Shown: piece by piece, positions 9,060 to 21,767 of the stretch | How the letters are laid out: every line of letters begins with the position of its first letter | Position numbering within the stretch: position 1 is the stretch's first letter | From: Streptomyces sp. MMG1121 | Lineage (GTDB): Bacteria > Actinomycetota > Actinomycetes > Streptomycetales > Streptomycetaceae | Length of the DNA stretch: 23,404 bases | Assembly: GCF_001280015.1 (NCBI RefSeq) | Contig: NZ_LGDV01000243.1 | Span: forward strand, 1 to 23,404 | Reading direction: 5' to 3' | The notes under the pieces: model-generated | Databases searched by the model: none | Seen by the model: only the letters and a program-made list of their open reading frames with translations | What the model was told of the DNA's origin: nothing | Position numbers and translations under genes: made by a program

Positions 9060-10268
9060 CTACCATCTGACGGGGAGCTGGAGCATCCCCTGGAGCGTGG
9101 TGCCCGGTTTGAACGGGATCTCCGACACGGGCGCGGCGAGCTTCAACCCCGGCAGCCGGTCGAACAGGGTGCGCAGCGCGATCTCGATCTCGGCGCGGGC
9201 GAGGTTCTGTCCCAGGCACTGGTGCATGCCGAAGCCGAACGCGAGGTGGTGCCGGTCGGGGCGGTGCCAGTCCAGCTCGTCGGGCGCGCTGTAGGCCGCG
9301 GTGTCCCGGTTGATCAGGGACGTCGACATCACGACACCGTCGTTGGCGCGGATCGTCTGTCCGGCGTACTCGATGTCCTGGGTCGCCACCCGCATGCCGC
9401 CCTCGGCGACGGCACAGAAGCGCAGCAGTTCCTCCACGGCGGCCGGCATCAGCTCCGGGTCCGCGCGCAGTTCGGCGAGCCGGTCCGGGTGCTCCAGCAG
9501 CGTGAACGCGCCAAGGGAGATCATGTTGGTGGTGGTCTCATGGCCCGCGACGACCAGCAGGGCCGCCAACGCCATCAGCTCGTCGGGCCGGATGGCCCCT
9601 TCGGCCAGCGGCTGGTGGATGAGCTCGTCGAGCAGCGCGTCGCCGGGCTCGCGCTGCTTGCGCTCGATCAACGCGCCCAGATAGGCGTCGAGTTGCTCCC
9701 CGCCCCGCTGGGTGTCCTCGACGGTCGGGCCGGCTATCAGCCGCCGCGACTGCTCCTCGAAGAACTCGTGGTCGGCGTACGGCACACCGAGCATGAGACA
9801 CATCACCTGCGAGGACACCGGCAGCGCGAACGCGCTCACCAGCTCGGCGGGCGGCCCCTGGGCGATGATGTCGTCGATGAGTGCGTCGACGATCTCCTGG
9901 ATCTTCGGGCGCAGGGCGGAGACGCGCTTGGCCGTGAAGGTGGGGATCACCGTCCGCCGCAGTGTCTTGTGCTCGGGGTCGTCCATGCCCAGGAGGGACA
10001 GCCGGCGCCCGCGAACACGGTTCTTGAAGCCCTCGGTGGGCGAGGGGAACGCCTCGTTGTCCTGGTCGGCGGACAGGCGCGGGTCGCCGAGCAGATCCCG
10101 GGCCGCAGCGATCCCGGTGACGAGCCACACCGCGCGGCCGTCGTAGAGCCTGACCCGGGTCAGCGGCCGGGCGGCGCGCAGCGGGTCGTACCCGGCCGGC
10201 GGGTGGTAGGGACACGTACGGTCCTGGGGGAAGGAGACGAGGGGGTGCTTCACCGCTTCTTCCGTCAT
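9060..10268 (-). CDS. cytochrome P450 (CYP105-like)
   Basis: A 402-residue soluble bacterial P450. The I-helix oxygen-activation motif is AGHETT (241-246), the K-helix ExxR is EELLR (279-283), and the haem loop FGFGMHQCLG has the ligand C351. The N-terminal region (RLSADQDNEAFP, then MDDPEHKTLRR) resembles CYP105-type streptomycete enzymes. It would hydroxylate, couple or epoxidise the cluster product, with the downstream ferredoxin as partner; the substrate is unknown. The ATG has GAGG 7 nt upstream. It is the first gene of a two-gene operon, with a candidate promoter 90-95 bp upstream and a dyad beyond it. Confidence 0.93.
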   Translation of the reverse strand: MTEEAVKHPLVSFPQDRTCPYHPPAGYDPLRAARPLTRVRLYDGRAVWLVTGIAAARDLLGDPRLSADQDNEAFPSPTEGFKNRVRGRRLSLLGMDDPEHKTLRRTVIPTFTAKRVSALRPKIQEIVDALIDDIIAQGPPAELVSAFALPVSSQVMCLMLGVPYADHEFFEEQSRRLIAGPTVEDTQRGGEQLDAYLGALIERKQREPGDALLDELIHQPLAEGAIRPDELMALAALLVVAGHETTTNMISLGAFTLLEHPDRLAELRADPELMPAAVEELLRFCAVAEGGMRVATQDIEYAGQTIRANDGVVMSTSLINRDTAAYSAPDELDWHRPDRHHLAFGFGMHQCLGQNLARAEIEIALRTLFDRLPGLKLAAPVSEIPFKPGTTLQGMLQLPVRW

Positions 10269-10357
10269 GGATGCCTCGCAACTGTAGGAACAGGTGAACC
10301 GAGTCAGGCGGCCCGCTGACGGCCAGGCCCGTGGGCAGAGCGCGTTCGACCGGCGTC

Positions 10358-10363
10358 ACTATA
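10358..10363 (-). promoter_or_regulatory. candidate -10 box (TATAGT) of the P450 operon
   Basis: TATAGT on the minus strand fits the TAnnnT consensus and lies about 90 bp upstream of the P450 start. No good -35 is found 16-18 bp upstream, which would fit an activated promoter using the dyad at 10389-10423. Confidence 0.4.
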
Positions 10364-10388
10364 GGCACGCCGCCCGACCAGGCCATAT

Positions 10389-10423
10389 GGTGTGCAACCG
10401 CGGAGACCCCGCCCTTGCACACC
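10389..10423. promoter_or_regulatory. perfect 9-bp dyad upstream of the P450 gene
   Basis: GGTGTGCAA at 10389-10397 and TTGCACACC at 10415-10423 form a perfect inverted repeat with a 17-bp spacer. It lies just upstream of where the -35 of the P450 promoter would be, a usual place for an activator. It could also fold as a hairpin, but no gene ends nearby on either strand. Confidence 0.5.
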
Positions 10424-10550
10424 CGTCGACGGCAGCGGAGGCAGGCTGGTGCAGGCAGATCCGGGACCGGCCCGCCGTGACGCACGCCCGGGCGTCCACC
10501 GGCCCTCGACACGGCCTCGAGCCCATCTGGACCCGCCGCACCCCGTACCG

Positions 10551-10612
10551 CACATGACGACGCGCCCCGGCGCACACATCACCCCGCCCTCCGGCCGCAC
10601 ATCACCCCGCCC
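10551..10612. repeat. short direct repeats with period 23-24 bp
   Basis: The 15-mer CACATCACCCCGCCC occurs at 10575-10589 and 10598-10612, and a degenerate copy begins at 10551. The stretch is non-coding, between the P450 promoter region and the CMD terminator. The rest of 10,424-10,629 shows no gene. Confidence 0.5.
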
Positions 10613-10629
10613 CGTGCCACACGCGACAG

Positions 10630-10662
10630 CGTCCCGGGCACCGGTGAGCGGTGCACGGGACG
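10630..10662 (-). terminator. terminator after CMD-family gene 1
   Basis: A 13-pair stem with one mismatch (CGTCCCG-g-GCACCG against CGGTGC-a-CGGGACG) and a 5-nt loop GTGAG, 25 bp past the stop at 10688. Confidence 0.8.
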
Positions 10663-10687
10663 TGGGCGGGCGCCGGGCGGGCGTCGG

Positions 10688-11164
10688 TCAGCCGAAGTCG
10701 CCGGGCGTGTAGCTGCCGCCGGGCGTGCGGTTGAGGACGCCGAAGCGGTTGGAGGAGTTGATGAAGGCGATGAAGCACATCAGCGCCGACAGCTGCTCCT
10801 CGTCGAAGTGCTTTTCGGCGTCGGCCCAGGCCTCGTCGGTGATGCCGCCGGCGCCGTCGGCGATGCGGGTGCCCTGCTCCGTCAGCTCCAGCGCGGCGCG
10901 CTCCGCGTCGGTGAAGACGGTGGACTCCCGCCAGGCCGCGACCAGGTTGACGCGCGTCGCGGACTGCCCGGCATGTGCGAGGTCCTTGGAGTGCGCGTCC
11001 GTGCAGTAGCCGCAGCCGTTGATCTGGCTGGCCCGCAGCATCACCAGGTCCTGAATCGTCTTCGGCAGCGACGACTCCTTGATGAGGGTCCTGCTCGCCG
11101 AGGCGAAGTACTTCAGGGACTTGGCGATGACGGGGCTGTTGTAGAGGTTCAGACGCGGTTCCAT
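10688..11164 (-). CDS. AhpD-like carboxymuconolactone decarboxylase family protein (CMD 1)
   Basis: A 158-residue all-helical protein of the CMD/AhpD family. The redox motif CGYCTDAH gives C51, C54 and H58, the arrangement used by AhpD-type alkylhydroperoxidases. It ends with the short conserved region FIAFINSSNRFGVL. Its likely role is thiol-dependent peroxide reduction or an uncharacterised redox function; true carboxymuconolactone decarboxylation is unlikely. The ATG at 11164 has AAGGAG 6 nt upstream. It is transcribed away from the ebo regulator gene. Upstream is an ECF41-type promoter identical in its boxes to that of CMD 2 (21106-21672), which sits beside the ECF41 sigma gene. Confidence 0.9.
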   Translation of the reverse strand: MEPRLNLYNSPVIAKSLKYFASASRTLIKESSLPKTIQDLVMLRASQINGCGYCTDAHSKDLAHAGQSATRVNLVAAWRESTVFTDAERAALELTEQGTRIADGAGGITDEAWADAEKHFDEEQLSALMCFIAFINSSNRFGVLNRTPGGSYTPGDFG

Positions 11165-11195: not shown

Positions 11196-11220
11196 GTCTC
11201 AGTGGGTACGTCACTGAGAC
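11196..11220. promoter_or_regulatory. dyad overlapping the CMD 1 promoter -10
   Basis: GTCTCAGTG (11196-11204) and CACTGAGAC (11212-11220) form a perfect 9-bp inverted repeat with a 7-bp spacer. It covers the -10 box and start site of the CMD 1 promoter. The core TCTCAGTGG is repeated twice in the CMD 2 leader. Confidence 0.55.
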
Positions 11221-11244
11221 ACCGCGAACCAGTGCACTGTGACA
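11218..11244 (-). promoter_or_regulatory. ECF41-type promoter of CMD 1
   Basis: On the minus strand TGTCACA (11238-11244), 16 nt, TGTC (11218-11221). The published ECF41 consensus, from memory, is TGTCACA-N16-CGTC; this differs by one base. The -10 lies 54 bp upstream of the start codon. The same two boxes with the same spacing precede CMD 2. Confidence 0.75.
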
Positions 11245-11325
11245 TGGCCCGGTACCGGGGCGCCGGTCGGCAAGCCTCGTCCTCAAGACGGGCTCGAGCC
11301 GCCTTCCAGACCCGCTTGTGGCTCG

Positions 11326-11355
11326 TTGACACTGTTCTGGCCCACCGCCTCCAAT
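11326..11355 (+). promoter_or_regulatory. candidate sigma-70-type promoter of the ebo regulator
   Basis: TTGACA (11326-11331), 18 nt, TCCAAT (11350-11355). The -35 is a perfect consensus hexamer and the -10 matches at four of six positions. The start codon follows 47 bp after the -10. Confidence 0.55.
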
Positions 11356-11402
11356 GTCGCTGTCGGAAATTGGTCCCTTGCGCATCGCGTCAGGAGGTGC
11401 AC

Positions 11403-12434
11403 GTGTCTCAGGCCGAGCAGTTGACATACCCGGCGGTCGATCCCGACGCGATCGAGTCATCGGCCCTGTGGATCGCCTCGCACCCCGTCACCCGCGTACG
11501 GATCGACTCGCTCGTCCTGGACGACTCCCCTCGGCTGGCCGGGGAGGACCAGGCCCATGTGCGGGCGCTCGCCGAGGCCGGGGACTGTCTGCCTCCCATC
11601 GTGGTGCACCGCCCCACCCTGCGGGTCATCGACGGCGCCCACCGCGTCCGTGCGGCCCAGGTCAACGGCCGTTCGGAGATCGCCGCACGGCTGCTGGACT
11701 GCGACCGGGCCGCGGCCTTCGTACTGGCGGTGCGGGCCAACGTCACCCACGGTATGCCGCTGTCCCGCGCCGACCGCACGGCCGCGGCGGCCCGGATCGT
11801 CCGTGCCTACCCGCGCTGGTCGGACCGTGCGGTCGCGGCCGCCGCCGGACTCTCCGACAAGACCGTCTCCCGCATCCGCGTGTGCTCGGGCGCCGGGGAC
11901 AGCACACCGTGCGAAACGAGACTCGGCCGGGACGGCCGGGTACGGCCCCTCGACAGCGCTCAGCGCCGGCGCCACGCCGCCGCGATCCTCCTCGACCTGC
12001 CCCACGCCGGACTGCGCGAGGTCGCCCGCGCCACCGGCCTGTCACCCGCCACGGTGCGCGACGTACGACGCCGCATCGACCGCGGCGAGGACCCCGTCCC
12101 GGTCCGTTACCGCGCTCCTGGGCCCGTGGCCGGCGACCCCACCGCGAACCGGCCGCGCCCGCCCGCCGCCCCCGCACGTGCCGAACGCAGCGCCGTCCCC
12201 GTGGACCGGCACAAACTGCTCGCACGGCTCGGCGAGGACCCCTCGCTGCGGCTCAACGAAGCCGGCCGGCGCGCCCTGCGCTGGCTGCACCACTACTCCG
12301 TCGACGGCGGTGACACCGAGACGCTGCACCGCGGACTGCCCGGCCACTGGTCCCCCGAGGTCGCCGATCTGGCCCGCAGTTGCGCGGCCGTCTGGAGCGA
12401 GCTGGCCGCACAGCTCCAGCAGCGCACGTTGTAG
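11403..12434 (+). CDS. StrR/ParB-like DNA-binding regulator
   Basis: A 343-residue protein. Residues about 28-100 are a ParB-like domain with the signature VIDGAHRVRAA (75-85) after PPIVVHRPTLR. A helix-turn-helix follows at 141-160 (SDRAVAAAAGLSDKTVSRIR) and a second at about 203-224 (LREVARATGLSPATVRDVRR). This is the architecture of StrR-type pathway activators of antibiotic clusters and of ParB-like regulators, and it differs from chromosome-partition ParB in lacking an evident dimerisation tail of that type. It probably activates the ebo operon 121 bp downstream and may be co-transcribed with it. The GTG at 11403 is preceded by AGGAGG at ideal spacing; longer in-frame starts upstream would overlap its promoter. 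Confidence 0.82.
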   Translation: MSQAEQLTYPAVDPDAIESSALWIASHPVTRVRIDSLVLDDSPRLAGEDQAHVRALAEAGDCLPPIVVHRPTLRVIDGAHRVRAAQVNGRSEIAARLLDCDRAAAFVLAVRANVTHGMPLSRADRTAAAARIVRAYPRWSDRAVAAAAGLSDKTVSRIRVCSGAGDSTPCETRLGRDGRVRPLDSAQRRRHAAAILLDLPHAGLREVARATGLSPATVRDVRRRIDRGEDPVPVRYRAPGPVAGDPTANRPRPPAAPARAERSAVPVDRHKLLARLGEDPSLRLNEAGRRALRWLHHYSVDGGDTETLHRGLPGHWSPEVADLARSCAAVWSELAAQLQQRTL

Positions 12435-12555
12435 CGCCCAGACCGGCACGCCGTACGGACAGGCCGCAAGCCGCCCCCAGCTCAGGGACCACCCCTTCCC
12501 CCCTCTGCCCCGCTCGACCCGCTCGTCAGAACCGACGCACTTCAGGAGGCCTTCC

Positions 12556-13710
12556 GTGTCCGAACATGACGAGACGTCCGGTACCCGCCCCGGACCCGAG
12601 AGCGGGCCCGGCACCGGCGTGTGGTTCATCGGAGCCCGCGGCTCCGTCGCCACGACCGCGGTCGCCGGGTGCGCCGCGCTCGCCGCGGGGCTGCACCCGC
12701 CGACGGGCATGGTCACCGAGACCGAGGCCTTCACCGGCGCCCGCCTGCCCGCCCTGTCCGGCCTCGTCTTCGGCGGCCACGACACCGTCGACTGGCCGCT
12801 GCCCAAGCGCGCCGAGGCACTCACCGAACAGGGCGTCCTGCCGCACGGCCTCGGCCAGGCGGTGCACCACGAACTCGCCGCCGCCGACCGGGAGATACGC
12901 ACCGGCGGACCGCTGGCCGGAGACCGGCGCAGCGACGAGGAGCTGATCGCCGCTTTCGCCGCCGACATCGAGGACTTCACCCGCCGCCGGGCGCTCGCCC
13001 GGACCGTCGTCGTGAACGTCGCCTCCACCGAGCCCGCCCCGGCCGCGGGCGACCCCCGGCTGCCGGCCAGCTCCCTGTACGCGGCGGCCGCCCTGCGCGC
13101 GGGCTGCGCGTACGTGAACTTCACCCCGTCGACCGGTGTGCGCCACCCGGCCCTGGAGGAGCCGGCCCGGTCCGCGGGCGTGCCCTACGCGGGCCGGGAC
13201 GGCAAGACCGGGCAGACCCTGCTGCGGGCGGTGCTCGCGCCCATGTTCCGCCAGCGCGCCCTGACCGTACGGGCCTGGTCCGGCACCAATCTGCTCGGCG
13301 GCGGAGACGGGGCGGCGCTCGCCGACTCCGCCGCGGCGGCAGCGAAGAACGCGGGCAAGAACCGGGTCCTTCAGGACACCCTCGGAGTGCTGCCCGAGGG
13401 TGAGGTGCACATCGACGACGTACCCGCGCTCGGCGAGTGGAAGACCGCCTGGGACCACGTCGCCTTCGAGGGCTTCCTCGGCGCGGGCATGATCCTCCAG
13501 ACCATCTGGCAGGGCTGCGACTCGGCGCTCGCCGCGCCGCTCGTGCTCGACCTGGCCCGGCTCGCCGCCCGCGCCCACGAGGCGGGGATCACCGGGAGCC
13601 TTCCGGAGCTGGGCTTCTACTTCAAGGATCCGGACGGCGGCTCCGCGGCGCTCGCCGAGCAGTACGACGTGCTCCTGGGCTTCGCCGCCCGCCTGGGGGC
13701 GGCACGGTGA
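12556..13710 (+). CDS. myo-inositol-1-phosphate synthase homologue of the archaeal type
   Basis: A 384-residue NAD-dependent cyclase homologue. The NAD-binding loop is FIGARGSVATT (24-34); then VNVASTEP, GKTGQTLLRAVLAPMF (216-231), SGTNLLGGGDG (242-252), the lysine-rich AKNAGKN (263-269), KTAWDH (296-301), WQGCDS (318-323) and YFKDP. These match the archaeal-type synthase, which turns glucose 6-phosphate into inositol phosphate; catalytic lysine positions appear kept, though the usual GNxDG is GGGDG and the SKxxSK pair is AKNAGK. It may make inositol phosphate or another cyclitol phosphate for the ebo pathway. It stands where other ebo clusters have the dehydroquinate-synthase-like EboD. The GTG has AGGAGG 7 nt upstream; its end overlaps eboC by GTGA. 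Confidence 0.85.
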   Translation: MSEHDETSGTRPGPESGPGTGVWFIGARGSVATTAVAGCAALAAGLHPPTGMVTETEAFTGARLPALSGLVFGGHDTVDWPLPKRAEALTEQGVLPHGLGQAVHHELAAADREIRTGGPLAGDRRSDEELIAAFAADIEDFTRRRALARTVVVNVASTEPAPAAGDPRLPASSLYAAAALRAGCAYVNFTPSTGVRHPALEEPARSAGVPYAGRDGKTGQTLLRAVLAPMFRQRALTVRAWSGTNLLGGGDGAALADSAAAAAKNAGKNRVLQDTLGVLPEGEVHIDDVPALGEWKTAWDHVAFEGFLGAGMILQTIWQGCDSALAAPLVLDLARLAARAHEAGITGSLPELGFYFKDPDGGSAALAEQYDVLLGFAARLGAAR

Positions 13711-14669
13711 GCACCGCCCGCGACTGGGCCGAACTCCTCCGGGTCTCCGCCCTGTTCACCGTTCCCGGCGACGCGCTCGCCGGGGCCGCGGCGAGCGGGC
13801 TGCGCCCGGGCGCCCGCACCGCCCTGGCGGCCGGCACCTCGCTGTGCCTGTACACGGCCGGCATGGCGCTCAACGACTGGGCGGACCGGGAGGAGGACGC
13901 CGCCGAGCGCCCGCACCGCCCCCTGCCCTCGGGCCGTATCGCCCCCGCTCACGCGCTGACGGCGGCGGCCGCGCTGACGGCCACCGGGATCGGCCTCGCG
14001 CTCGTCGCGGGCCGCTCCGCCGCGCTCACCGCCACCGCCCTCGCCGGCACTGTCTGGGCGTACGACCTGCGGCTGAAGCACACGCCCGGCGGCCCGGCGG
14101 CGATGGCCGCCGCCCGCGGCCTCGACCTGCTCCTCGGGGCGGTGGCCACCGCCGGCTCCCGTGCCGGTGACCGGGACGCGGCCGTCGCCGACGGCACGGC
14201 CCGGGCGGTGCGCCGCGCACTGCCGTCCGCCGCCGCGCTCGGCGCCCACACCTATGCGGTCACCGCCGTCTCCCGCCACGAGACCCAGGGCGGGGCGCCG
14301 GGCAGGGCACTCGCCGCGCTCGGCGCGACCGCCGCCCTCGGCCTGCTGACCGGCGCCGTACGGGGCAGCGACGGCCCGCGCACCGGACAGCGCCGGAGCA
14401 GGCCGCTCAGGTCGCTCGGCACGCCCCACGACCTTGCCCGGACCGCGTGCGCGGGCGCCTACGTGGCAACGGCGGCGCGGCCCTACCTGCATGCCGCGCT
14501 GAACCCGTCACCGCCCCTGACCCAGAAGGCCGTGGGCGGCGGCATCCGCGCGATGATCCCGCTGCAGGCGGCCCTCGCGGCACGCTCCGGTGCGCTCGCC
14601 CCGGCCGGGCTGCTCACCGCACTGGTGCCCGTGGCCCGCCGAGCGGCCCGGAAGGTGAGCCCCACATGA
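13707..14669 (+). CDS. eboC: EboC, UbiA-family membrane prenyltransferase
   Basis: A 320-residue membrane protein with about eight hydrophobic segments. The first aspartate-rich motif is NDWADREED (56-64), followed by the family stretch RPHRPLPSG (68-76), and the second conserved region is YDLRLKH (119-125). UbiA enzymes transfer polyprenyl groups from diphosphates to aromatic or cyclic acceptors inside the membrane, with Mg bound by the aspartates. In the ebo pathway the acceptor is unknown; a cyclitol made by the preceding synthase is one reasonable guess. It starts with a GTG overlapping the upstream stop and ends overlapping the next start (ATGA), so translation is coupled on both sides. 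Confidence 0.88.
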   Translation: MSTARDWAELLRVSALFTVPGDALAGAAASGLRPGARTALAAGTSLCLYTAGMALNDWADREEDAAERPHRPLPSGRIAPAHALTAAAALTATGIGLALVAGRSAALTATALAGTVWAYDLRLKHTPGGPAAMAAARGLDLLLGAVATAGSRAGDRDAAVADGTARAVRRALPSAAALGAHTYAVTAVSRHETQGGAPGRALAALGATAALGLLTGAVRGSDGPRTGQRRSRPLRSLGTPHDLARTACAGAYVATAARPYLHAALNPSPPLTQKAVGGGIRAMIPLQAALAARSGALAPAGLLTALVPVARRAARKVSPT

Positions 14670-15559
14670 GCATCCGCCTCGGCTACGGCACGAACGGCCT
14701 GACCGACCTGCGGCTCGACGACGCACTCGGCATACTGGCCGAACTCGGCTACGACGGCGTCGGCCTGACCCTCGACCACATGCACCTCGACCCGCTCGGC
14801 CCGCATCTCGCCGCCCGCGTGGCCCGGATCGCCGGCCGGCTCGACGCGCTCGGCCTGTCCGTCACCGTGGAGACCGGCGCCCGCTATGTGCTCGACCCCC
14901 GCCGCAAGCACGCCCCGACCCTGATCGAACCGGAGCCGGAGGGGCGGGCGGCGCGGACCGAGTTCCTGGTCACCGCGGTGCGGGTGGCCGCGGACCTCGG
15001 CGCCCACGCGGTGCACTGCTTCAGCGGAGTCCGGTCCGTCGTCACCAGCGAGGACACCGCCTGGGACCTGCTCGGCGACTCCCTCGGCCCGGTCCTCGAC
15101 GCCGCTGAACGGGCCGGCGTCCCGCTCGCCATCGAGCCTGAGCCCGGTCACCTCCTGGACTCGCTCGCCGGCTTCCACCGGCTGCGCGCACAGCTCGGCC
15201 ACCACCCGCTGCTCGGCCTCACCCTCGACATCGGGCACTGCCAGTGCCTGGAGCCGCTGCCGCCGGCCGACTGCGTCAGCGCCGCGGCTCCCTGGCTGCG
15301 GCACGTGCAGATCGAGGACATGCGGCGCGGTGTGCACGAACACCTGCCCCTCGGCGAGGGCGAGATCGACTTCCCGGCCGTGCTCGCCGCGCTCGACGCC
15401 ACCGGCTACCAGGGGCTGACCGTCGTCGAGCTGCCCCGCCACTCGCACGCCGGCCCGCGACTCGCCCGCTCCTCCATGGAGTTCCTGCGCGCCCAGCTCA
15501 CCGCGCTGCCCCGCGCCGCCTCCTCGCCCACCGCCGCCTTCGCGGCGCCGTCCGCGTAG
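14666..15559 (+). CDS. xylose-isomerase-like TIM barrel (sugar phosphate isomerase/epimerase family)
   Basis: A 297-residue AP-endonuclease-2/xylose-isomerase-like TIM barrel. Candidate metal ligands are E157 in AIEPEPGH, D188 and H191 in TLDIGHC, H213 in HVQIEDM and E255 in VVELPRHS; GEGEIDF (230-236) is the family's usual late motif. Relatives such as IolE and IolI dehydrate or isomerise inosose and related cyclitols, which fits an operon that also holds an inositol-phosphate synthase. It resembles EboE in fold but is shorter, so the operon has two barrels of this superfamily. The ATG overlaps the eboC stop; GAAGG lies upstream. Confidence 0.85.
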   Translation: MSIRLGYGTNGLTDLRLDDALGILAELGYDGVGLTLDHMHLDPLGPHLAARVARIAGRLDALGLSVTVETGARYVLDPRRKHAPTLIEPEPEGRAARTEFLVTAVRVAADLGAHAVHCFSGVRSVVTSEDTAWDLLGDSLGPVLDAAERAGVPLAIEPEPGHLLDSLAGFHRLRAQLGHHPLLGLTLDIGHCQCLEPLPPADCVSAAAPWLRHVQIEDMRRGVHEHLPLGEGEIDFPAVLAALDATGYQGLTVVELPRHSHAGPRLARSSMEFLRAQLTALPRAASSPTAAFAAPSA

Positions 15560-15569
15560 GGAAACCCGT

Positions 15570-16190
15570 ATGCCCATCACCCGAGAGGAACTGCCGGCCC
15601 GCCTCGGTCCCGAGAGCGCCGCATGGATCGACGCCGCGCTCGCCGACGCGCACGACGCCGCCCGCCCCGGCCCGGACGCCCCGCCGCGCCGGGGCATCGC
15701 GGCGTGGGAGCGGCGGTTCGCGGCGGCCGGCCGGGAGTGCGGCTCACCAGAGGCGGCGGAGGCCGTCCGCGTCCTCCTGCTGCACACCGCCCGCCCCGAC
15801 GCGGCCACCGTGACCCGGCTCTACGAGCGGGGCACCGCCGCCGAACGCCGCGCCGTCCTGCTGGCCCTGCCGCATCTGCCTCTCGCCCCGCACGAGGCTG
15901 TCCCGCTGCTCGAGGACGCGCTGCGCACCAACGACACCCGGCTGGTCGCCGCGGCCGTAGAGACCGGTGCCGCCGCCCATCTGGACGCCCACGCCTGGCG
16001 CCACGCCGTCCTCAAGTGCCTGTTCACCGCAGTGCCGCTGGCCGTCGTCGCAGGCCTTGCGGACCGGGCCCGCGCGGACGCCGAACTCGCCCGCATGCTG
16101 CGGGACTTCGCCGCGGAACGTACCGCCGCGGGGCGGCCCGTCCCCGAGGACCTCTCCCACGTACTCGCCCTGACCGCCAAGGAAGCCTGA
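15570..16190 (+). CDS. eboA: EboA-domain protein
   Basis: A 206-residue protein without known catalytic motifs. It carries the marks of the EboA family as I know them: ERRAVLLALPHLP (92-104), the invariant-looking RTNDTR (119-124), AWRHAVLKCLF (142-152) and AERTAAGR (182-189). It is rich in helices and probably forms an alpha-helical repeat-like fold. EboA is required in cyanobacteria, with the other ebo proteins, for export of the scytonemin monomer to the periplasm; its biochemical role is unknown. It starts 10 bp after the TIM-barrel gene with a weak ribosome site (GGGAAA) and shares one base with eboB. Confidence 0.85.
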   Translation: MPITREELPARLGPESAAWIDAALADAHDAARPGPDAPPRRGIAAWERRFAAAGRECGSPEAAEAVRVLLLHTARPDAATVTRLYERGTAAERRAVLLALPHLPLAPHEAVPLLEDALRTNDTRLVAAAVETGAAAHLDAHAWRHAVLKCLFTAVPLAVVAGLADRARADAELARMLRDFAAERTAAGRPVPEDLSHVLALTAKEA

Positions 16191-17038
16191 TGCGCATCTT
16201 CGACCCGCACATCCACATGACCTCGCGCACCACCGACGACTACCAGGCGATGTACGCGGCAGGAGTGCGAGCGCTGGTCGAGCCCTCCTTCTGGCTCGGT
16301 CAGCCGCGCACCTCGCCGCAGAGCTTCCTCGACTACTTCGACGCGCTGCTCGGCTGGGAGCCCTACCGGGCCGCGCAGTACGGGATCGCACACCACTGCA
16401 CCATCGCCCTCAACCCCAAGGAGGCGAACGACCCGCGCTGTGTGCCCGTCCTTGACGAGCTGCCGCGCTATCTGGTCAAGGACGGCGTGGTCGCGGTCGG
16501 GGAGATCGGGTACGACTCGATGACGGCGGCCGAGGACACCGCACTGGCCGCGCAGCTCGAACTCGCCGCCGAGCACGGCCTGCCCGCCCTGGTGCACACC
16601 CCGCACCGCGACAAGCTGACGGGCCTGCGCCGCACCCTCGACGTGGTCACCGAGTCGAAACTGCCCGTCGAACACGTCCTGGTCGACCACCTCAACGAGA
16701 CCACGGTCGAGGAGGCCAAGGACTCGGGTGCCTGGCTCGGCTTCTCCGTCTACCCGGACACCAAGATGGACCCCCACCGCATGGTCGCCGTGCTGAAGGA
16801 GTACGGACCGGAGCGGGTCCTGGTCAACTCGGCCGCGGACTGGGGAAAGAGCGACCCGCTCAACACCCGCAGGGTCGGTGAGGCGATGCTCGCCGCGGGA
16901 TTCGGCGAGGACGACGTGGACCGGGTGCTGTGGCGCAACCCCGTCACGTTCTACGGGCAGAGCGGCCGGCTGGTCCTGGAACCCGCCAAGCCGCAGGAGC
17001 TGCACGAGGGCAACTCCATACTGCGCGGGGGCGAATGA
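16190..17038 (+). CDS. eboB: EboB, TatD-like metal-dependent hydrolase
   Basis: A 282-residue amidohydrolase-superfamily TIM barrel. Metal ligands expected for TatD-like enzymes are visible: H7 and H9 in DPHIHM, E105 in AVGEIGYD, H136 in VHTPHRDK, H167 in VDHLNE and D217 in SAADWGKSDP. TatD proteins are metal-dependent nucleases or hydrolases, but the ebo branch has no proven substrate. It could hydrolyse a phosphate ester or lactone in the pathway. The ATG overlaps the eboA stop by one base (TGATG) and eboE follows 3 bp after its stop, so it is tightly coupled in the operon. Confidence 0.9.
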   Translation: MRIFDPHIHMTSRTTDDYQAMYAAGVRALVEPSFWLGQPRTSPQSFLDYFDALLGWEPYRAAQYGIAHHCTIALNPKEANDPRCVPVLDELPRYLVKDGVVAVGEIGYDSMTAAEDTALAAQLELAAEHGLPALVHTPHRDKLTGLRRTLDVVTESKLPVEHVLVDHLNETTVEEAKDSGAWLGFSVYPDTKMDPHRMVAVLKEYGPERVLVNSAADWGKSDPLNTRRVGEAMLAAGFGEDDVDRVLWRNPVTFYGQSGRLVLEPAKPQELHEGNSILRGGE

Positions 17039-17041
17039 ACC

Positions 17042-18211
17042 GTGCGCTTCCTGCACCCCGACGGCACGACCGTACACCTCGCCTACTGCACCAACGTCCA
17101 TCCGGCCGAGACCCTCGACGGTGTCGTCGCCCAGCTCTCCGCCCACTGCGGACCGGTCCGCCGCCGCCTGGGCGTCGAGCGCCTGGGCATAGGACTGTGG
17201 CTGGCCCGCGACGCGGTGCGTGTCCTGAACGCCGAGCCGGCCGCGCTGCGTCGGCTGCGCACCGAGCTGGACCGGTGCGGCCTGGAGGTGGTCACCCTCA
17301 ACGGCTTCCCCTACCAGGGCTTCGGCGCCGAGCAGGTCAAGTACCGCGTCTACCGGCCCGACTGGACCGACCCGCGGCGCCTGGAGCACACCGCCGACCT
17401 GGCGCGACTGCTCGCCCGGCTGCTGCCGCCCGACGTCACCGAGGGCACCGTCTCCACGCTGCCGCTGGCCTGGCGCACCGGCTTCGACGAGGCCGCGGCC
17501 GCCTCGGCGCACACGGCGCTGACCGAACTGGCCCGCCGTCTGGACCGGCTGGAGCAGGAATCGGGCCGCTCGATCCGGCTGGCCCTGGAGCCGGAGCCCG
17601 GCTGCGCGGTGGAGACCACCACCGACGCGCTCGCCCCGCTCACCGCCCTGCCCGGCCACCGCATCGGCCTGTGCCTGGACACCTGTCACCTCGCGACCAG
17701 CTTCGAGGAGCCCCGGACGGCACTCGCGAACCTGGCACGGGCGGGCGTCCCGGTGCCCAAGGTGCAGCTCTCCGCGGCCCTGCACGCACAGGACCCGCGC
17801 GACCCGGCGGTCCGTGCGGCGCTCGCCGCCTTCGACGAGCCGCGTTTCCTGCACCAGACCCGGGCCCGGGCGGACGGGGTCCTGCACGGCACCGACGACC
17901 TCGGCCAGGCGCTGAGCGGGAACGCGCTGCCGGACACCGTGCCCTGGCGGGCCCACTTCCACGTACCGCTGCACCAGCCGCCCGCCCCGCCGCTCACCTC
18001 CACGCTCGGCGTGCTGCGCGAGACGCTCGCCGCGCTGGTCGGCGGGCCCACCGCGGTCAGCCGCCACTTCGAGGTCGAGACCTACACCTGGCAGGCCCTG
18101 CCCGTGGCGGCGCGTCCGGCCACCGACGCCCAGCTCGCCGACGGCATTGCCGCCGAACTCGGCCTGGCCCGCGACCTGTTGACCGACCTCGGACTCAAGG
18201 AACAGCCGTGA
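17042..18211 (+). CDS. eboE: EboE, metabolite traffic protein (TIM barrel)
   Basis: A 389-residue TIM-barrel protein of the EboE family. Motifs: AYCTNVHP (14-21), LNGFPYQGF (86-94), ALEPEPGC (181-188), CLDTCHLA (211-218) and VETYTWQALP near residue 345. The E and D/H residues in EPEPGC and LDTCH correspond to the metal site of xylose-isomerase-like barrels, so it is probably an enzyme rather than a transporter despite the family name. It may act with the shorter barrel at 14666-15559. The start is GTG, 3 bp after the eboB stop, and its end overlaps eboF by GTGA. Confidence 0.9.
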   Translation: MRFLHPDGTTVHLAYCTNVHPAETLDGVVAQLSAHCGPVRRRLGVERLGIGLWLARDAVRVLNAEPAALRRLRTELDRCGLEVVTLNGFPYQGFGAEQVKYRVYRPDWTDPRRLEHTADLARLLARLLPPDVTEGTVSTLPLAWRTGFDEAAAASAHTALTELARRLDRLEQESGRSIRLALEPEPGCAVETTTDALAPLTALPGHRIGLCLDTCHLATSFEEPRTALANLARAGVPVPKVQLSAALHAQDPRDPAVRAALAAFDEPRFLHQTRARADGVLHGTDDLGQALSGNALPDTVPWRAHFHVPLHQPPAPPLTSTLGVLRETLAALVGGPTAVSRHFEVETYTWQALPVAARPATDAQLADGIAAELGLARDLLTDLGLKEQP

Positions 18212-19590
18212 CGACGTCCCCGACGCCCCTTCTCGTGCTGGACGTGGTGGGCCTGACCCCCGCGCTCCTGGACCACATGCCCCGGCTGAAGGCCCTCGCC
18301 GGCCACGGCTCGCGCGCCGGACTCGGCACCGTGCTGCCCGCCGTCACCTGCGCCGCCCAGTCCACCTTCCTGACCGGCACGATGCCCGCCGAGCACGGCG
18401 TCGTCGGCAACGGCTGGTACTTCCGCGACCTCGGCGAGATCCTCCTGTGGCGCCAGCACAACGGGCTCGTCGAGGGCGACAAGGTCTGGGACGCGGCCCG
18501 CCGGCTGCACCCCGGCTACACGGTCGCCAACGTCTGCTGGTGGTACGCGATGGGCGCGGACACCGACTTCACCGTCACCCCGCGCCCGGTCTACTACGCC
18601 GACGGCCGCAAGGAACCCGACTGCTACACCCGGCCGCCCGGGCTGCACGACGAACTCACCGCGAAACTCGGTACGTTCCCGCTGTTCAGCTACTGGGGCC
18701 CCACGGCCGGCCTGGTGTCCAGCGAGTGGATCATCGACGCGACCCGGCATCTGAACCGCACCCGGCACCCCGACCTGACGCTGTGCTACGTACCGCACCT
18801 CGACTACGACCTCCAGCGGTTCGGCCCGACGGACCCGCGGTCTCTGAAGGCCGCCGCCGACCTCGACGCCGTGCTCGCCCCGCTGCTCGACGACGCCGAC
18901 GCCGAGGGACGCACCGTCGTCGTCCTGTCCGAGTACGGCATCACCCCGGTCAGCAGGCCCGTCGACATCAACCGGGCGCTGCGCCGTGCCGGTTACCTCG
19001 AGGTGCACACCCAGGACGGCATGGAGTACCTGGACACCACCGCCTCCCGCGCCTTCGCGGTGGCCGACCACCAGATCGCGCATGTGTATGTGCGCCGGCC
19101 CGAGGACCTGGCCGGTGTCCGGGAGGTGCTGGAGGGCCTCGACGGGATCGATGCGGTCCTTGCCGACGCGGACAAGAAGGAATACGGCCTGGACCACCCG
19201 CGCGCCGGCGAGTTCGTCGCGGTCGCCGAGCCGGACGCCTGGTTCACGTACTACTACTGGCTCGACGACACCTGCGCCCCCGACTTCGCGCGGCTCGTGG
19301 AGATCCACCGCAAGCCCGGCTACGACCCCGCCGAACTGTTCATGGACCCCGACGACCCGTATGTGAAGGTCAAGGCGGCCAAGGCGCTGGCCCGCAAGAA
19401 GCTCGGCATGCGCTACCGGATGGCCGTCGTCCCGCTCGACCCCTCCCCGGTGCGCGGCAGCCACGGCAGGCTGCCGGACCGGCCCGAGGACGGACCGGTC
19501 CTGCTGTGCTCCCGTCCGGGCGAGGTCTCGGGGACCCTCGCCGCCACGGAGGTGAAGGCGCTGCTGCTGCGGCTGGCGGGGATCGCCTGA
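18208..19590 (+). CDS. eboF: EboF, alkaline-phosphatase/nucleotide-pyrophosphatase fold protein
   Basis: A 460-residue protein of the type I phosphodiesterase/nucleotide pyrophosphatase fold. D12 in VLDVVGL and T47 in AVTCAAQST fit the first metal ligand and nucleophile; GTMPAEHGVVGNG (57-69) is the following family motif. Other ligands depart from the classic set: PHLDYDLQRFGP (196-207) has Gln where the second histidine is expected, and SEYG (241-244) replaces SDHG. I believe this is typical of the EboF branch, so substrate or metal use may differ from ordinary pyrophosphatases. It could cleave a phosphodiester or prenyl-phosphate intermediate. The GTG overlaps the eboE stop and AAGGA lies upstream. 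It is the last gene of the operon, ending 26 bp from the convergent SnoaL-like gene. Confidence 0.88.
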   Translation: MTTSPTPLLVLDVVGLTPALLDHMPRLKALAGHGSRAGLGTVLPAVTCAAQSTFLTGTMPAEHGVVGNGWYFRDLGEILLWRQHNGLVEGDKVWDAARRLHPGYTVANVCWWYAMGADTDFTVTPRPVYYADGRKEPDCYTRPPGLHDELTAKLGTFPLFSYWGPTAGLVSSEWIIDATRHLNRTRHPDLTLCYVPHLDYDLQRFGPTDPRSLKAAADLDAVLAPLLDDADAEGRTVVVLSEYGITPVSRPVDINRALRRAGYLEVHTQDGMEYLDTTASRAFAVADHQIAHVYVRRPEDLAGVREVLEGLDGIDAVLADADKKEYGLDHPRAGEFVAVAEPDAWFTYYYWLDDTCAPDFARLVEIHRKPGYDPAELFMDPDDPYVKVKAAKALARKKLGMRYRMAVVPLDPSPVRGSHGRLPDRPEDGPVLLCSRPGEVSGTLAATEVKALLLRLAGIA

Positions 19591-19616
19591 GCCTTTCCGC
19601 GGGCCGGCGGCGCCGC

Positions 19617-20132
19617 TCAGATCAGGTTTTCGAGCGCGGCCGTCAGACTGTCGATGCGCCAGCCGCCGTCGGCCTCGCGGCGCAGGTGGAAGCGGTAGGC
19701 GCCGGAGATGGCGAGGGAGGAGTGGGCGTGGCCGATACGTAACTGGAGCATGTAGGCGTGCGCCGTGGCCTCGTCGCCGGACAGCTCGATCACGTGGTTG
19801 GTGAACAGGTGACGGCGCTGGTCGCCCTGCTTCGGCCACAGGTCGGCCTCTTGCGCCGCGATGTTCTCGGCCCCGTGCTTGGCGGGGATCTCGATCTCGC
19901 CCATGATGGTGCCGCGCCAGGTGGCGTCGGCGGTGAAGCACTCGGCGAGCGCGGCCTGGTCGTGTTCGTCGTAGGCCCAGCCGTAGCGCGCGATGCGCTC
20001 GGCGATCAGCAGACGGTCGGCGGCGGAGCCGGCATCGGTGGCGGCGGAACCGCCGTACGCGGCGAAGCCGAGCAGCCCCGCGGCGGTGGCCCAGCCGGGC
20101 GCCGGACGGGGGACGGGAAGGCCGGTTTCCAT
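19617..20132 (-). CDS. stand-alone SnoaL-like protein
   Basis: A 171-residue protein. Residues about 38-168 form a SnoaL/NTF2-like domain (SnoaL_4 type): RLLIAERIARYGWAYDEHD, CFTADATWRG, and a C-terminal WRIDSLTAALENL. Residues 14-31 are hydrophobic (ATAAGLLGFAAYGGSAA) and might be a signal or anchor, though no basic cluster precedes. SnoaL-like proteins are cyclases, isomerases or ligand binders. The sigma factor upstream ends in the same fold, which suggests a functional link. The ATG at 20132 has AGGGAG upstream. Its start lies only 22 bp past a strong hairpin, so it needs a promoter inside that region or read-through. Confidence 0.8.
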   Translation of the reverse strand: METGLPVPRPAPGWATAAGLLGFAAYGGSAATDAGSAADRLLIAERIARYGWAYDEHDQAALAECFTADATWRGTIMGEIEIPAKHGAENIAAQEADLWPKQGDQRRHLFTNHVIELSGDEATAHAYMLQLRIGHAHSSLAISGAYRFHLRREADGGWRIDSLTAALENLI

Positions 20133-20154
20133 GATCACTCCCTTGCAATGCGTG

Positions 20155-20183
20155 GGTCCGGGCGGTTCGCAACCGCCCGGACC
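20155..20183 (-). terminator. strong terminator or attenuator after the ECF41 sigma gene
   Basis: Perfect 13-bp stem GGTCCGGGCGGTT/AACCGCCCGGACC with a 3-nt loop (CGC). It lies between the sigma stop (20211) and the SnoaL-like start (20132) and probably limits transcription into the latter. Confidence 0.85.
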
Positions 20184-20210
20184 ACTCATGACATCTGCCG
20201 TACGACCCAA

Positions 20211-21077
20211 CTACCGGGCGAGATCGGCCAGTTCGTCGAGGCGCGTCAGCTTGTGCGGGTTGCGCACCACATAGATCCGCGTGACCCGCCCATCCTCCAC
20301 CTCGAGACTCACCGCGGCCGGAGTGCCGTCGAACTCGATCCGGCCCGCGGGCGCGCCGTTGAGCCATACCGTCGTGGTCTCCAGCGCGTCCACCACCCGG
20401 TTGGCGCGGGCGAGGATCGGCGCCACCGCGTCGGCTCCGTGGATCGGCTCCAGAGCGGCGGCGACCAGGCCGCCCCCGTCGGTGACCAGGACGACGTCCG
20501 GTGCCATGACCTCCAGCAGTTCCTGGAGCTTCCCGGTGCGCAACGCCGTGAGGAACCGCTCCACCACGGCCTGCTTCTCCGACCGGCTGACCTGCACCCG
20601 CGGCCGCCGGGCCGCCACGTGCTCGCGTGCCCGGCGAGCGATCTGCCGTACCGCGACCTGGGACTTCCCGATGGCCTCGGCGATCTCCCCGTACGGCATG
20701 TCGAACACCTCGCGGAGCACGAACACCGCCCGCTCGGTCGGCCCGAGCGTCTCCAGCACGGTCAGCACCGCGATCGAGACGCTCTCCGCGAGTTCGACGT
20801 CCTCGGCGACGTCGGGGCTGGTCAGCAGCGGTTCCGGCAGCCACTCGCCCACGTAGTCCTCGCGGCTGCGCGACAGGCTGCGCAGCCGGTTGAGGGACTG
20901 CCGGGTGACGGCCCGGACGAGATACGCCCGGGGCTCACGCACCTGGGACCGGTCGACGTCGGCCCACCGCAGCCAGGTCTCCTGGAGCACGTCCTCCGCG
21001 TCGGCGGCGGAGCCGAGCATCTCGTAGGCGACGGTGAACAGCAGGCTGCGGTGGACGACGAACGGATCATCGGTCAT
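20211..21077 (-). CDS. ECF41-type RNA polymerase sigma factor with SnoaL-like C-terminal domain (SigJ-like)
   Basis: A 288-residue ECF sigma factor. Region 2 covers about 10-40 (SLLFTVAYEML, AEDVLQETWLRW), region 4 about 105-155 (LGPTERAVFVLREVF, YGEIAEAIGKSQVAVRQ), and a SnoaL-like domain 165-288. ECF41 hallmarks are all present: WLPEPL (79-84) in the linker, DGGG (200-203) and NPHKL (273-277). In this group the C-terminal domain regulates the sigma factor in place of a separate anti-sigma, and the usual target is a neighbouring CMD, oxidoreductase or epimerase gene. That fits here: CMD 2 is directly upstream with an ECF41-type promoter. The start at 21077 (MTDDPFVVHR) matches the family; an ATG at 21101, 4 bp past the CMD 2 stop, is an alternative. 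Neither has a clear ribosome site, so translation is probably coupled to CMD 2. Confidence 0.92.
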   Translation of the reverse strand: MTDDPFVVHRSLLFTVAYEMLGSAADAEDVLQETWLRWADVDRSQVREPRAYLVRAVTRQSLNRLRSLSRSREDYVGEWLPEPLLTSPDVAEDVELAESVSIAVLTVLETLGPTERAVFVLREVFDMPYGEIAEAIGKSQVAVRQIARRAREHVAARRPRVQVSRSEKQAVVERFLTALRTGKLQELLEVMAPDVVLVTDGGGLVAAALEPIHGADAVAPILARANRVVDALETTTVWLNGAPAGRIEFDGTPAAVSLEVEDGRVTRIYVVRNPHKLTRLDELADLAR

Positions 21078-21105
21078 GAGGTCATGAGTCTCACGAATCA
21101 TGCCG

Positions 21106-21672
21106 TCAGGCAACAGCGGTCTGGGAACGCTTGGCCAGCGGGATCTCGCAGGCCTCGGAGTAGCCCTGCGAGGTGATCCCGTGCGCCGTGTTGACCCGGG
21201 TGGACAGGTTGGCGAAACCGATGAACACGGTGAGCTCGACCAGCCCCGCCGGGCCGAGCTGCTTGAGCAGGCTCGCCGACAGCTCGTCGGTGACGGTCGT
21301 CGGCGTGTTCGTCATGGCCTCGGCGTACTCCATCACCTCACGCTCCAGCGGGGTGAACACATCGGAGTTCCGCCAGTTCGGCACCTGGCTCGCCTTTTCC
21401 ATGTCGAGGTTCTGGTTCAGCGCGGCGAAGTAGTTGATGTCCAGGCACCAGCTGCAACCGACCTGGGCCGCGACGGCCATGTGCGCGAAGGTCTTCAGGC
21501 CCTCGTCGGCCGCGTCCCACGCGGCGATCTTCGCCGAGAACTCCAGGTTGGAGGTGGCGACGGCGGGGTTGTTGAAGCTCACCTCGACGGGCTCGGGAAC
21601 GGCCCCGAGCTGCTTGACCAGCGCTTCCTTCATCTCGGCGGGGAGCTCGGCCTTCGGGACACGCACTGCCAT
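21106..21672 (-). CDS. carboxymuconolactone decarboxylase family protein (CMD 2), ECF41 partner
   Basis: A 188-residue CMD-family protein. The cysteine pair is in GCSWCLDIN (C73, C76); at the position of the AhpD histidine is an asparagine (N80), so classic AhpD peroxidase chemistry is doubtful. Such proteins are the usual first gene of ECF41 loci, where they are proposed to act in redox reactions or to supply the signal sensed by the sigma factor. The ATG at 21672 is supported by AAGGAG upstream; the longer frame lacks this and would run through the promoter. The promoter is the ECF41-type pair at 21741-21767. The sigma gene follows within 30 bp. Confidence 0.92.
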   Translation of the reverse strand: MAVRVPKAELPAEMKEALVKQLGAVPEPVEVSFNNPAVATSNLEFSAKIAAWDAADEGLKTFAHMAVAAQVGCSWCLDINYFAALNQNLDMEKASQVPNWRNSDVFTPLEREVMEYAEAMTNTPTTVTDELSASLLKQLGPAGLVELTVFIGFANLSTRVNTAHGITSQGYSEACEIPLAKRSQTAVA

Positions 21673-21691
21673 GGTGTTCTCCTTATCCTGC

Positions 21692-21720
21692 GGCCTTCTC
21701 AGTGGCCTTCTCAGTGGCCT
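21692..21720. repeat. 12-bp tandem repeat in the CMD 2 leader
   Basis: GGCCTTCTCAGT occurs twice in tandem plus a partial third copy, giving TCTCAGTGG at 21697-21705 and 21709-21717. The same 9-mer is in the CMD 1 promoter dyad (11198-11206), so this may be an operator rather than a chance duplication. Confidence 0.6.
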
Positions 21721-21740
21721 GCCGGCCTGTTTGGCATATA

Positions 21741-21767
21741 GACACCGCCGGGCGCACGGATGTGACA
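21741..21767 (-). promoter_or_regulatory. ECF41-type promoter of the CMD 2-sigma operon
   Basis: On the minus strand TGTCACA (21761-21767), 16 nt, TGTC (21741-21744). It matches the ECF41 consensus at all but one base and equals the CMD 1 promoter boxes. The -10 is 69 bp upstream of the CMD 2 start. It overlaps the hairpin at 21745-21789. Confidence 0.8.

Follow-up and report, generated by a model that had tools for sequence, protein, structure and literature searches.

ECF41 is a widespread group of extracytoplasmic function sigma factors, which has been published as one sigma factor with one neighbouring target. According to the available part of Wecke et al. 2012 (PMC3426412), the promoter reads TGTCACA-n16-CGTC, and an ECF41 factor generally controls a single target gene or operon. 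RpoE9 of Sinorhizobium meliloti was likewise reported with a single target, in agreement with Wecke et al., in the part of PMC6180224 that was available, and an earlier note on the DNA described here, which held that ECF41 factors are usually described with one neighbouring target, is in line with both sources. For Azospirillum brasilense, the available part of PMC8999054 cites the ECF41 factor RpoE10 (Dubey et al. 2020) with a title on the control of motility and lateral flagella. No published account of a distant second target of the carboxymuconolactone decarboxylase (CMD) family, or of lone CMD genes under ECF41-type promoters, was found among the matches listed by a search of titles and abstract openings that covered few subscription papers. 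Here, a contig of Streptomyces sp. MMG1121 (NZ_LGDV01000243.1; 23,404 nucleotides (nt), in the following called the window) is described, in which one ECF41-type sigma factor is accompanied by two CMD genes, CMD1 and CMD2, on either side of an ebo operon, each preceded by the same form of ECF41-type promoter (P1 and P2).

The window is the entire contig C242 of a 9.45 Mb assembly (G000), and start codons were picked by inspection. From left to right, it encodes a cytochrome P450 and CMD1 on the minus strand, a ParB-like protein and the seven-gene ebo operon on the plus strand, and a SnoaL_4 protein, the sigma factor, CMD2 and an NHL-repeat protein again on the minus strand. CMD1 (10691-11164, minus strand) is an AhpD-like CMD family protein of 158 amino acids (Pfam PF02627, 66.4 bits; TIGR00778, 54.9 bits) and carries the CxxC...H motif as CGYCTDAH, and CMD2 (21106-21672, minus strand) is a CMD family protein of 188 amino acids with a CSWC motif (PF02627, 25.6 bits, cut-off 23). 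P1 (11218-11244, minus strand) and P2 (21741-21767, minus strand) both read TGTCACA-N13-CGGTGTC, and the -10 box and the ATG are 53 nt apart at CMD1 and 68 nt apart at CMD2. Judged from the sequence, these elements quite likely form a two-operon ECF41 regulon, in which CMD2, sigma and SnoaL_4 would be transcribed in cis from P2 and CMD1 in trans from P1. The sigma gene directly follows CMD2, as the earlier note had stated, and its view of one ECF41-type promoter common to two separate transcription units is supported by a clade-specific -10 and by the presence of both promoters in Streptomyces sp. NBC_01450. Its statement that CMD1 diverges from the sigma gene had to be corrected, as CMD1, CMD2 and sigma all lie on the minus strand, and CMD1 diverges from the ParB-like gene and ebo.

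The sigma factor (20211-21077, minus strand; 288 amino acids) is of the ECF41 (SigJ-like) type with a fused SnoaL-like C-terminal domain and passed the models TIGR02957 (345 bits, cut-off 323) and NF007214 for SigJ (311 bits, cut-off 271). Sigma70_r2 and r4 scored over their cut-offs, and SnoaL_2 was matched with E 1.8e-5 and 25.7 bits, just below the cut-off of 27. Residues 6-278 match the M. tuberculosis (Mycobacterium tuberculosis) SigJ structure PDB 5xe7 with E 3.8e-45. WLPEP was found at position 79, DGGG, an ECF41 motif, at 200 and NPHKL at 273; the ECF41 linker and NPDKL motifs are named in the available part of PMC7730460. As in an ECF41 neighbourhood, CMD2 is a COE-type gene directly upstream of sigma on the same strand, and a family search detected no anti-sigma family among the sigma neighbours, the others being SnoaL_4 and ebo. 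Both promoters agree with the published consensus except for a T replacing the first C of the -10, and the ydfG promoter as given in the available text of Wecke et al. (PMC3426412) also has T at this position. Control of a single target is a reported behaviour and not a sequence trait, and two well-placed sites are present here by sequence.

Within the window, TGTCACA-N16-TGTC occurs exactly twice, before CMD1 and before CMD2, with identical boxes, a 16-nt spacer and the same orientation, so that the earlier note was right both on the two sites and in seeing the motif nowhere else. With up to two mismatches, three sites were found against 3.95 expected, and thus only the exact matches stand out. 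The element common to P1 and P2 is longer than first noted; in its extended form, TGTCACA-N13-CGGTGTC, it was found twice exactly in the window and not at all in 100 dinucleotide shuffles. A near-match before the ParB-like gene (11338-11364, plus strand, two mismatches) was rejected as chance-level, and its second box is not preserved in NBC_01450 and in another Streptomyces genome, G221. Over the CMD1 -10, a perfect 9-nt inverted repeat with a 7-nt loop (11196-11220) was observed and was rejected as an operator, being absent from the same two genomes.

The genome-wide scan for TGTCACA-N16-YGTC that the earlier note had proposed as a check gave 10 sites against two for the reversed control pattern. 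Four of the 10 end in CGGTGTC, and among these only P1 and P2 lie just before a gene start. Three sites precede genes adjoining another ECF41-type sigma, on contigs C202, C212 (an epimerase-like gene) and C241 (a transporter-like gene), the two gene names being given by inspection only. One site on C117 (G000:C117:288817-288843) precedes a 158-amino-acid CMD gene related to CMD1, and the nearest ECF41-like match on that contig lies about 48 kb from this promoter; because its -10 is CGCCGTC, this gene probably belongs to another sigma. At four sites (C95, C176, C200 and C261), no gene clearly starts just downstream, and the one on C176 lies inside an open frame. When any base was allowed after TGTCAC, two more GGTGTC sites were found in the genome, both with TGTCACC. 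The genome contains five full-length ECF41-type sigmas, the one of the window included, as well as weaker partial matches. The window sigma is 53% identical to its closest paralogue, and no second member of its clade is present in the genome. Sites beside the paralogues on C202, C241 and C212 end in CCCGTC or CTCGTC, and none was readable at C250.

Relatives of the sigma factor revealed that the form of the -10 is clade-specific. At 80 related loci, a collection that may omit records very near the window's genome, an exact ECF41-type site lies upstream of sigma in 64, with a -10 made up of C (63 loci), G (64), G (64) and T (63), followed by GTC. Among the other 16, TGTCACG with GGTGTC was found at 11 and nothing readable within 900 nt at five, so the base after TGTCAC is A at 64 loci and G at 11. 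A tree was built from 126 distinct ECF41-type proteins, from which two short matches (L286 and L194) and identical proteins had been removed beforehand. Sigmas at least 64% identical to that of the window have GGTGTC at 82 of 83 readable sites and GGCGTC at one (seven unreadable); between 56.5 and 64% identity, 11 GGTGTC, four GGCGTC and four unreadable sites were counted; between 52.5 and 56.5%, one GGTGTC, two other and one unreadable; and below 52.5%, none of eight readable sites is GGTGTC (five unreadable). As the site search did not require GG, the match between GGTGTC and the clade is an independent signal, and the -10 form points to the local sigma as the likely user of both P1 and P2. 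Ten positions of the sigma, residues 19, 60 and 70 among them, correlate with the GG-type -10; they were set aside as evidence of -10 contacts, since the association follows phylogeny and proves nothing on contacts.

Whether close relatives keep both promoters around ebo had also been raised in the earlier note, and the answer differs between genomes. In Streptomyces sp. NBC_01450 (NZ_CP109481.1, a 2.35 Mb linear record labelled plasmid), 95% of a 13.1 kb query was matched at 86.7% identity, the order P450-CMD1-ParB-ebo-SnoaL_4-sigma-CMD2 is kept, and both promoters are exact (TGTCACAGCCCGCCGATGCGCGGTGTC before CMD1 and TGTCACACTCGTGCGCCCGGCGGTGTC before CMD2). G221 keeps only the CMD1 promoter, as TGTCACG...CGGTGTC, together with P450-CMD1-ParB and the first ebo genes. 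Over the three species, 6 of 7 positions of the P1 -35, 7 of 7 of the -10 and 5 of the 13 nt between them are invariant. This putative P1 footprint appears clear but not overwhelming. Further intact copies of the whole locus may exist.

From the sequences, positions, clade-specific form and conservation of the promoters, we infer that this sigma uses P1. It would activate its own CMD2-sigma-SnoaL_4 operon from P2 and, in trans, CMD1 from P1, about 10.5 kb from P2. The TGTCACA -35 and the extended CGGTGTC -10 would set P1 and P2 apart from the promoters beside other ECF41-type sigmas with CCCGTC or CTCGTC. According to the ECF41 model, the sigma is restrained by its fused SnoaL-like domain until a small-molecule or redox signal is received. 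In this locus, its release would be expected to increase both thiol-type AhpD/CMD proteins at the same time, in a presumed small detoxification or redox response. Four observations weigh against a two-operon regulon. First, Wecke et al. (PMC3426412), in the part available, give 15 candidates in Bacillus licheniformis, not all of them tested, with ydfG as the sole detectable target, and because of this, matches to the consensus need not be targets. Second, the genome contains another two TGTCACA...CGGTGTC sites that lack a gene start. Third, the G221 assembly contains no close sigma (best match 49%) and no CMD2 (none at E <= 1e-20), yet the P1-type promoter is kept; as its ebo genes are split over two contigs (C178 and C224), both ending inside ebo, loss of the sigma operon and an assembly gap are not distinguishable. 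Fourth, 76 of the 120 positions upstream of P1 are also invariant in the three species, which limits the resolution of the footprint.

CMD1-type genes were then compared across a genus sample of 392 genomes. CMD1-type proteins at E <= 1e-55 are present in 256 of these, and 65 match a strict pattern, in which an ECF41-type promoter is separated by 20-50 nt from the start of a CMD1-type gene. By reading of the listing, none of the strict-pattern sites has CGGTGTC and one has CGGCGTC. A pattern requiring GGTGTC identified CMD1-type genes so equipped in four other genomes (G295, G120, G216 and G173); their sigmas are 59-80% identical to that of the window, but such sigmas also occur in 32 of 42 genomes searched, and this co-occurrence was discarded as uninformative. 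Of 62 distinct CMD1-type loci outside the window (30 strict-pattern loci, the four GGTGTC-pattern loci and best homologue matches, not all matches), 57 have no ECF41-like gene within about 1.5 kb, and a query with the window sigma found none in stretches of 16-20 kb at nine loci. CMD genes that have an ECF41-type promoter but lack a nearby ECF41 gene are common across the genus sample, and therefore a distant target is by itself no exception.

In a tree of 69 distinct CMD1-type proteins (71 minus two identical), the ebo-linked CMD1s of the window, NBC_01450 and G221 form one clade with a support of 0.978, and all have CGGTGTC. TCTCGTC is found in their sister (G284) and in the gene next in similarity (G237). 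Across the tree, the -10 is GG-type in eight promoters, of other form in 56 and unreadable in five, and the GG-type requires five changes; shuffled labels require 7.7 on average, with five or fewer reached in 7 of 2000 shuffles. Because the nearest CMD1 homologues elsewhere have CTCGTC, the CMD1 promoter appears to have switched specificity: probably, CMD1 had an ECF41-type promoter before its arrival at the ebo locus and was then retuned to the local sigma. In G243 (L286, G243:C1:4985001-5005000), a CMD1-type gene with CGGCGTC was observed about 11.6 kb from a CMD2 gene, which is followed by an ECF41 match. It was not accepted as a second linked case, as the ECF41 match spans only 116 residues and the stretch showed no ebo gene, and could be an independent instance of this pairing that lacks ebo.

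The ebo operon (12562-19590, plus strand) consists of genes for an inositol-phosphate-synthase-like protein, an SCO3242/EboC-type prenyltransferase, a sugar-isomerase-like protein, an EboA-domain protein, a TatD-like protein, EboE and a type I phosphodiesterase (EboF-like); TatD and EboB served as working labels, and EboB was not assigned to any of the genes. EboA, an EboC-type prenyltransferase and EboE, which together define ebo, are all present, with NF035938 and NF035939 over cut-off, and the prenyltransferase passes the SCO3242-type model NF045897 and fails NF035940 for EboC. As a metabolite-transport operon, ebo converges with the CMD2-sigma-SnoaL_4 operon at a distance of 26 base pairs. 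The earlier note had suggested a small regulon that brackets ebo. The regulon is indeed very small by sequence, and the bracketing does exist and has been passed on as a block in one other species, but a functional link is weak, the bracketing is rare and there is no sign of ebo in the regulon. A functional bracket, in which the regulon would serve a product handled by the ebo proteins and ebo would share its signal, is compatible with the two-operon regulon and is doubtful. It is favoured by the conservation of the whole block in NBC_01450 at 86.7% DNA identity and by partial copies, which link the sigma half to part of ebo in G370, NBC_01562 and NBC_01340 (L242, L281 and L282; sigma side only, with ebo cut at the same place in EboA) and the CMD1 half to part of ebo in G221. 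About 0.8 kb past this cut, G370 has the start of an IS4/5-type transposase gene. However, a scan of the window found ebo and the ParB-like gene to have no P1/P2-type site upstream, and an ebo gene was detected at none of the 80 loci of sigma relatives, in flanks of up to 10 kb, some ended by contig ends. EboF-like proteins occur in 269 of the 392 genomes, and in the 30 best ebo loci, three of which are truncated on the other side by the end of their contig, sigma lies within 1.5 kb of EboF only in the window and in G370. Inheritance as one block explains the arrangement sufficiently.

It is rather improbable that CMD1 is served by one of the other four full-length ECF41-type sigmas of the genome (C250, C202, C241 or C212) and that the nearby ECF41 operon is a coincidence. 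These paralogues, together with the weaker partial matches, provide possible regulators, CMD1-type genes are mostly lone and most of them have ECF41-type promoters and would hence be served in trans, and G221 has the P1 promoter without a close sigma. What speaks against such a paralogue is the form of the -10, since none of the readable sites beside these sigmas ends as P1 does, whereas CGGTGTC is the form of the local sigma's clade and of its nearest sister clades. That P1 is a chance match or relic and CMD1 is transcribed from some other promoter is very improbable, as the extended element was not obtained by shuffling, was kept in NBC_01450 and G221 while the spacer changed, and has counterparts at a like position before CMD1-type genes elsewhere, even though the short pattern with mismatches is no commoner than chance and two genomic CGGTGTC sites lack a gene start. 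A two-operon regulon is thus retained as the preferred reading.

The SnoaL_4 gene (19617-20132, minus strand, start by inspection; Pfam PF13577, 75.4 bits) is probably the third member of the CMD2-sigma operon. It is present in NBC_01450, NBC_01562, NBC_01340 and G370, was not found at the 80 related sigma loci searched and was observed only in ebo-linked copies. Its product may be a stand-alone partner of the SnoaL-like domain of the sigma. A ParB-like/helix-turn-helix regulator gene (11403-12434, plus strand; HTH_23, with some relatives named ParB N-terminal domain-containing) diverges from CMD1 and lies upstream of ebo. The cytochrome P450 gene (9060-10268, minus strand; Pfam p450, 99.9 bits) is a conserved neighbour of CMD1 and was left out of the regulon. 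Its membership in the CMD1 operon was tentatively set aside because the gap measures 422 nt, CMD1 is followed by a strong hairpin and P450 is preceded by a conserved palindrome; a terminator search between CMD1 and P450 found no terminator of the type searched for. The palindrome (GGTGTGCAA...TTGCACACC, within 10268-10691) is kept in NBC_01450 and G221 and looks like a candidate operator of a repressor. A further Orf2-type aromatic prenyltransferase-like gene lies in the window at 1298-2218. Contig C241 (L040) has three Orf2-type aromatic prenyltransferase-like matches and two ECF41-like sigma matches, and one of these sigmas follows the transporter-like gene with its ECF41-type promoter.

The locus represents a small and testable exception to the published pairing, with both promoters conserved in a second species, and it appears to hint that departures from the single-target rule are more general. 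From the wider survey, it seems that lone CMD genes could regularly belong to ECF41 control in the genus, and their ECF41-type promoters seem to question the rule as published. The clade-specific -10 offers a rule for assigning lone targets among several ECF41 paralogues. The chances are about even for a broader scheme, in which Streptomyces ECF41 sigmas would not be single-target, the many lone AhpD-type CMD genes would be served in trans, a -10 code (CGGTGTC against CCCGTC/CTCGTC) would separate the paralogues, and CMD1-type genes would have come under a different sigma several times by a switch of this code, one of these occasions being the arrival at the ebo-ECF41 locus.

Compared with known systems, SigJ of M. 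tuberculosis (PDB 5xe7) belongs to the same family by sequence and has a fused SnoaL_2 domain, the comparison being by sequence match alone. RpoE10 of A. brasilense is also ECF41 and, by the title cited in PMC8999054, perhaps controls more than one neighbour, with effects that are possibly indirect. The S. meliloti pair RpoE9-SMb20029 shares the CMD-sigma operon and the ECF41-type promoter and differs in that, according to the available part of PMC6180224, its authors identified a single target. Closest are Ecf41Bli-ydfG of B. licheniformis and Ecf41Rsp-RSP_0606 of Rhodobacter sphaeroides, which, as far as the available descriptions go, share with this locus the fused C-terminal regulatory domain, the adjacent CMD gene, the lack of an anti-sigma gene and a promoter of TGTCACA-N16 with a GTC- or GTT-type -10. 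For both of these, a single target beside the sigma gene has been described, whereas here a second CMD gene is found about 10 kb away, and the -10 has the extended form CGGTGTC.

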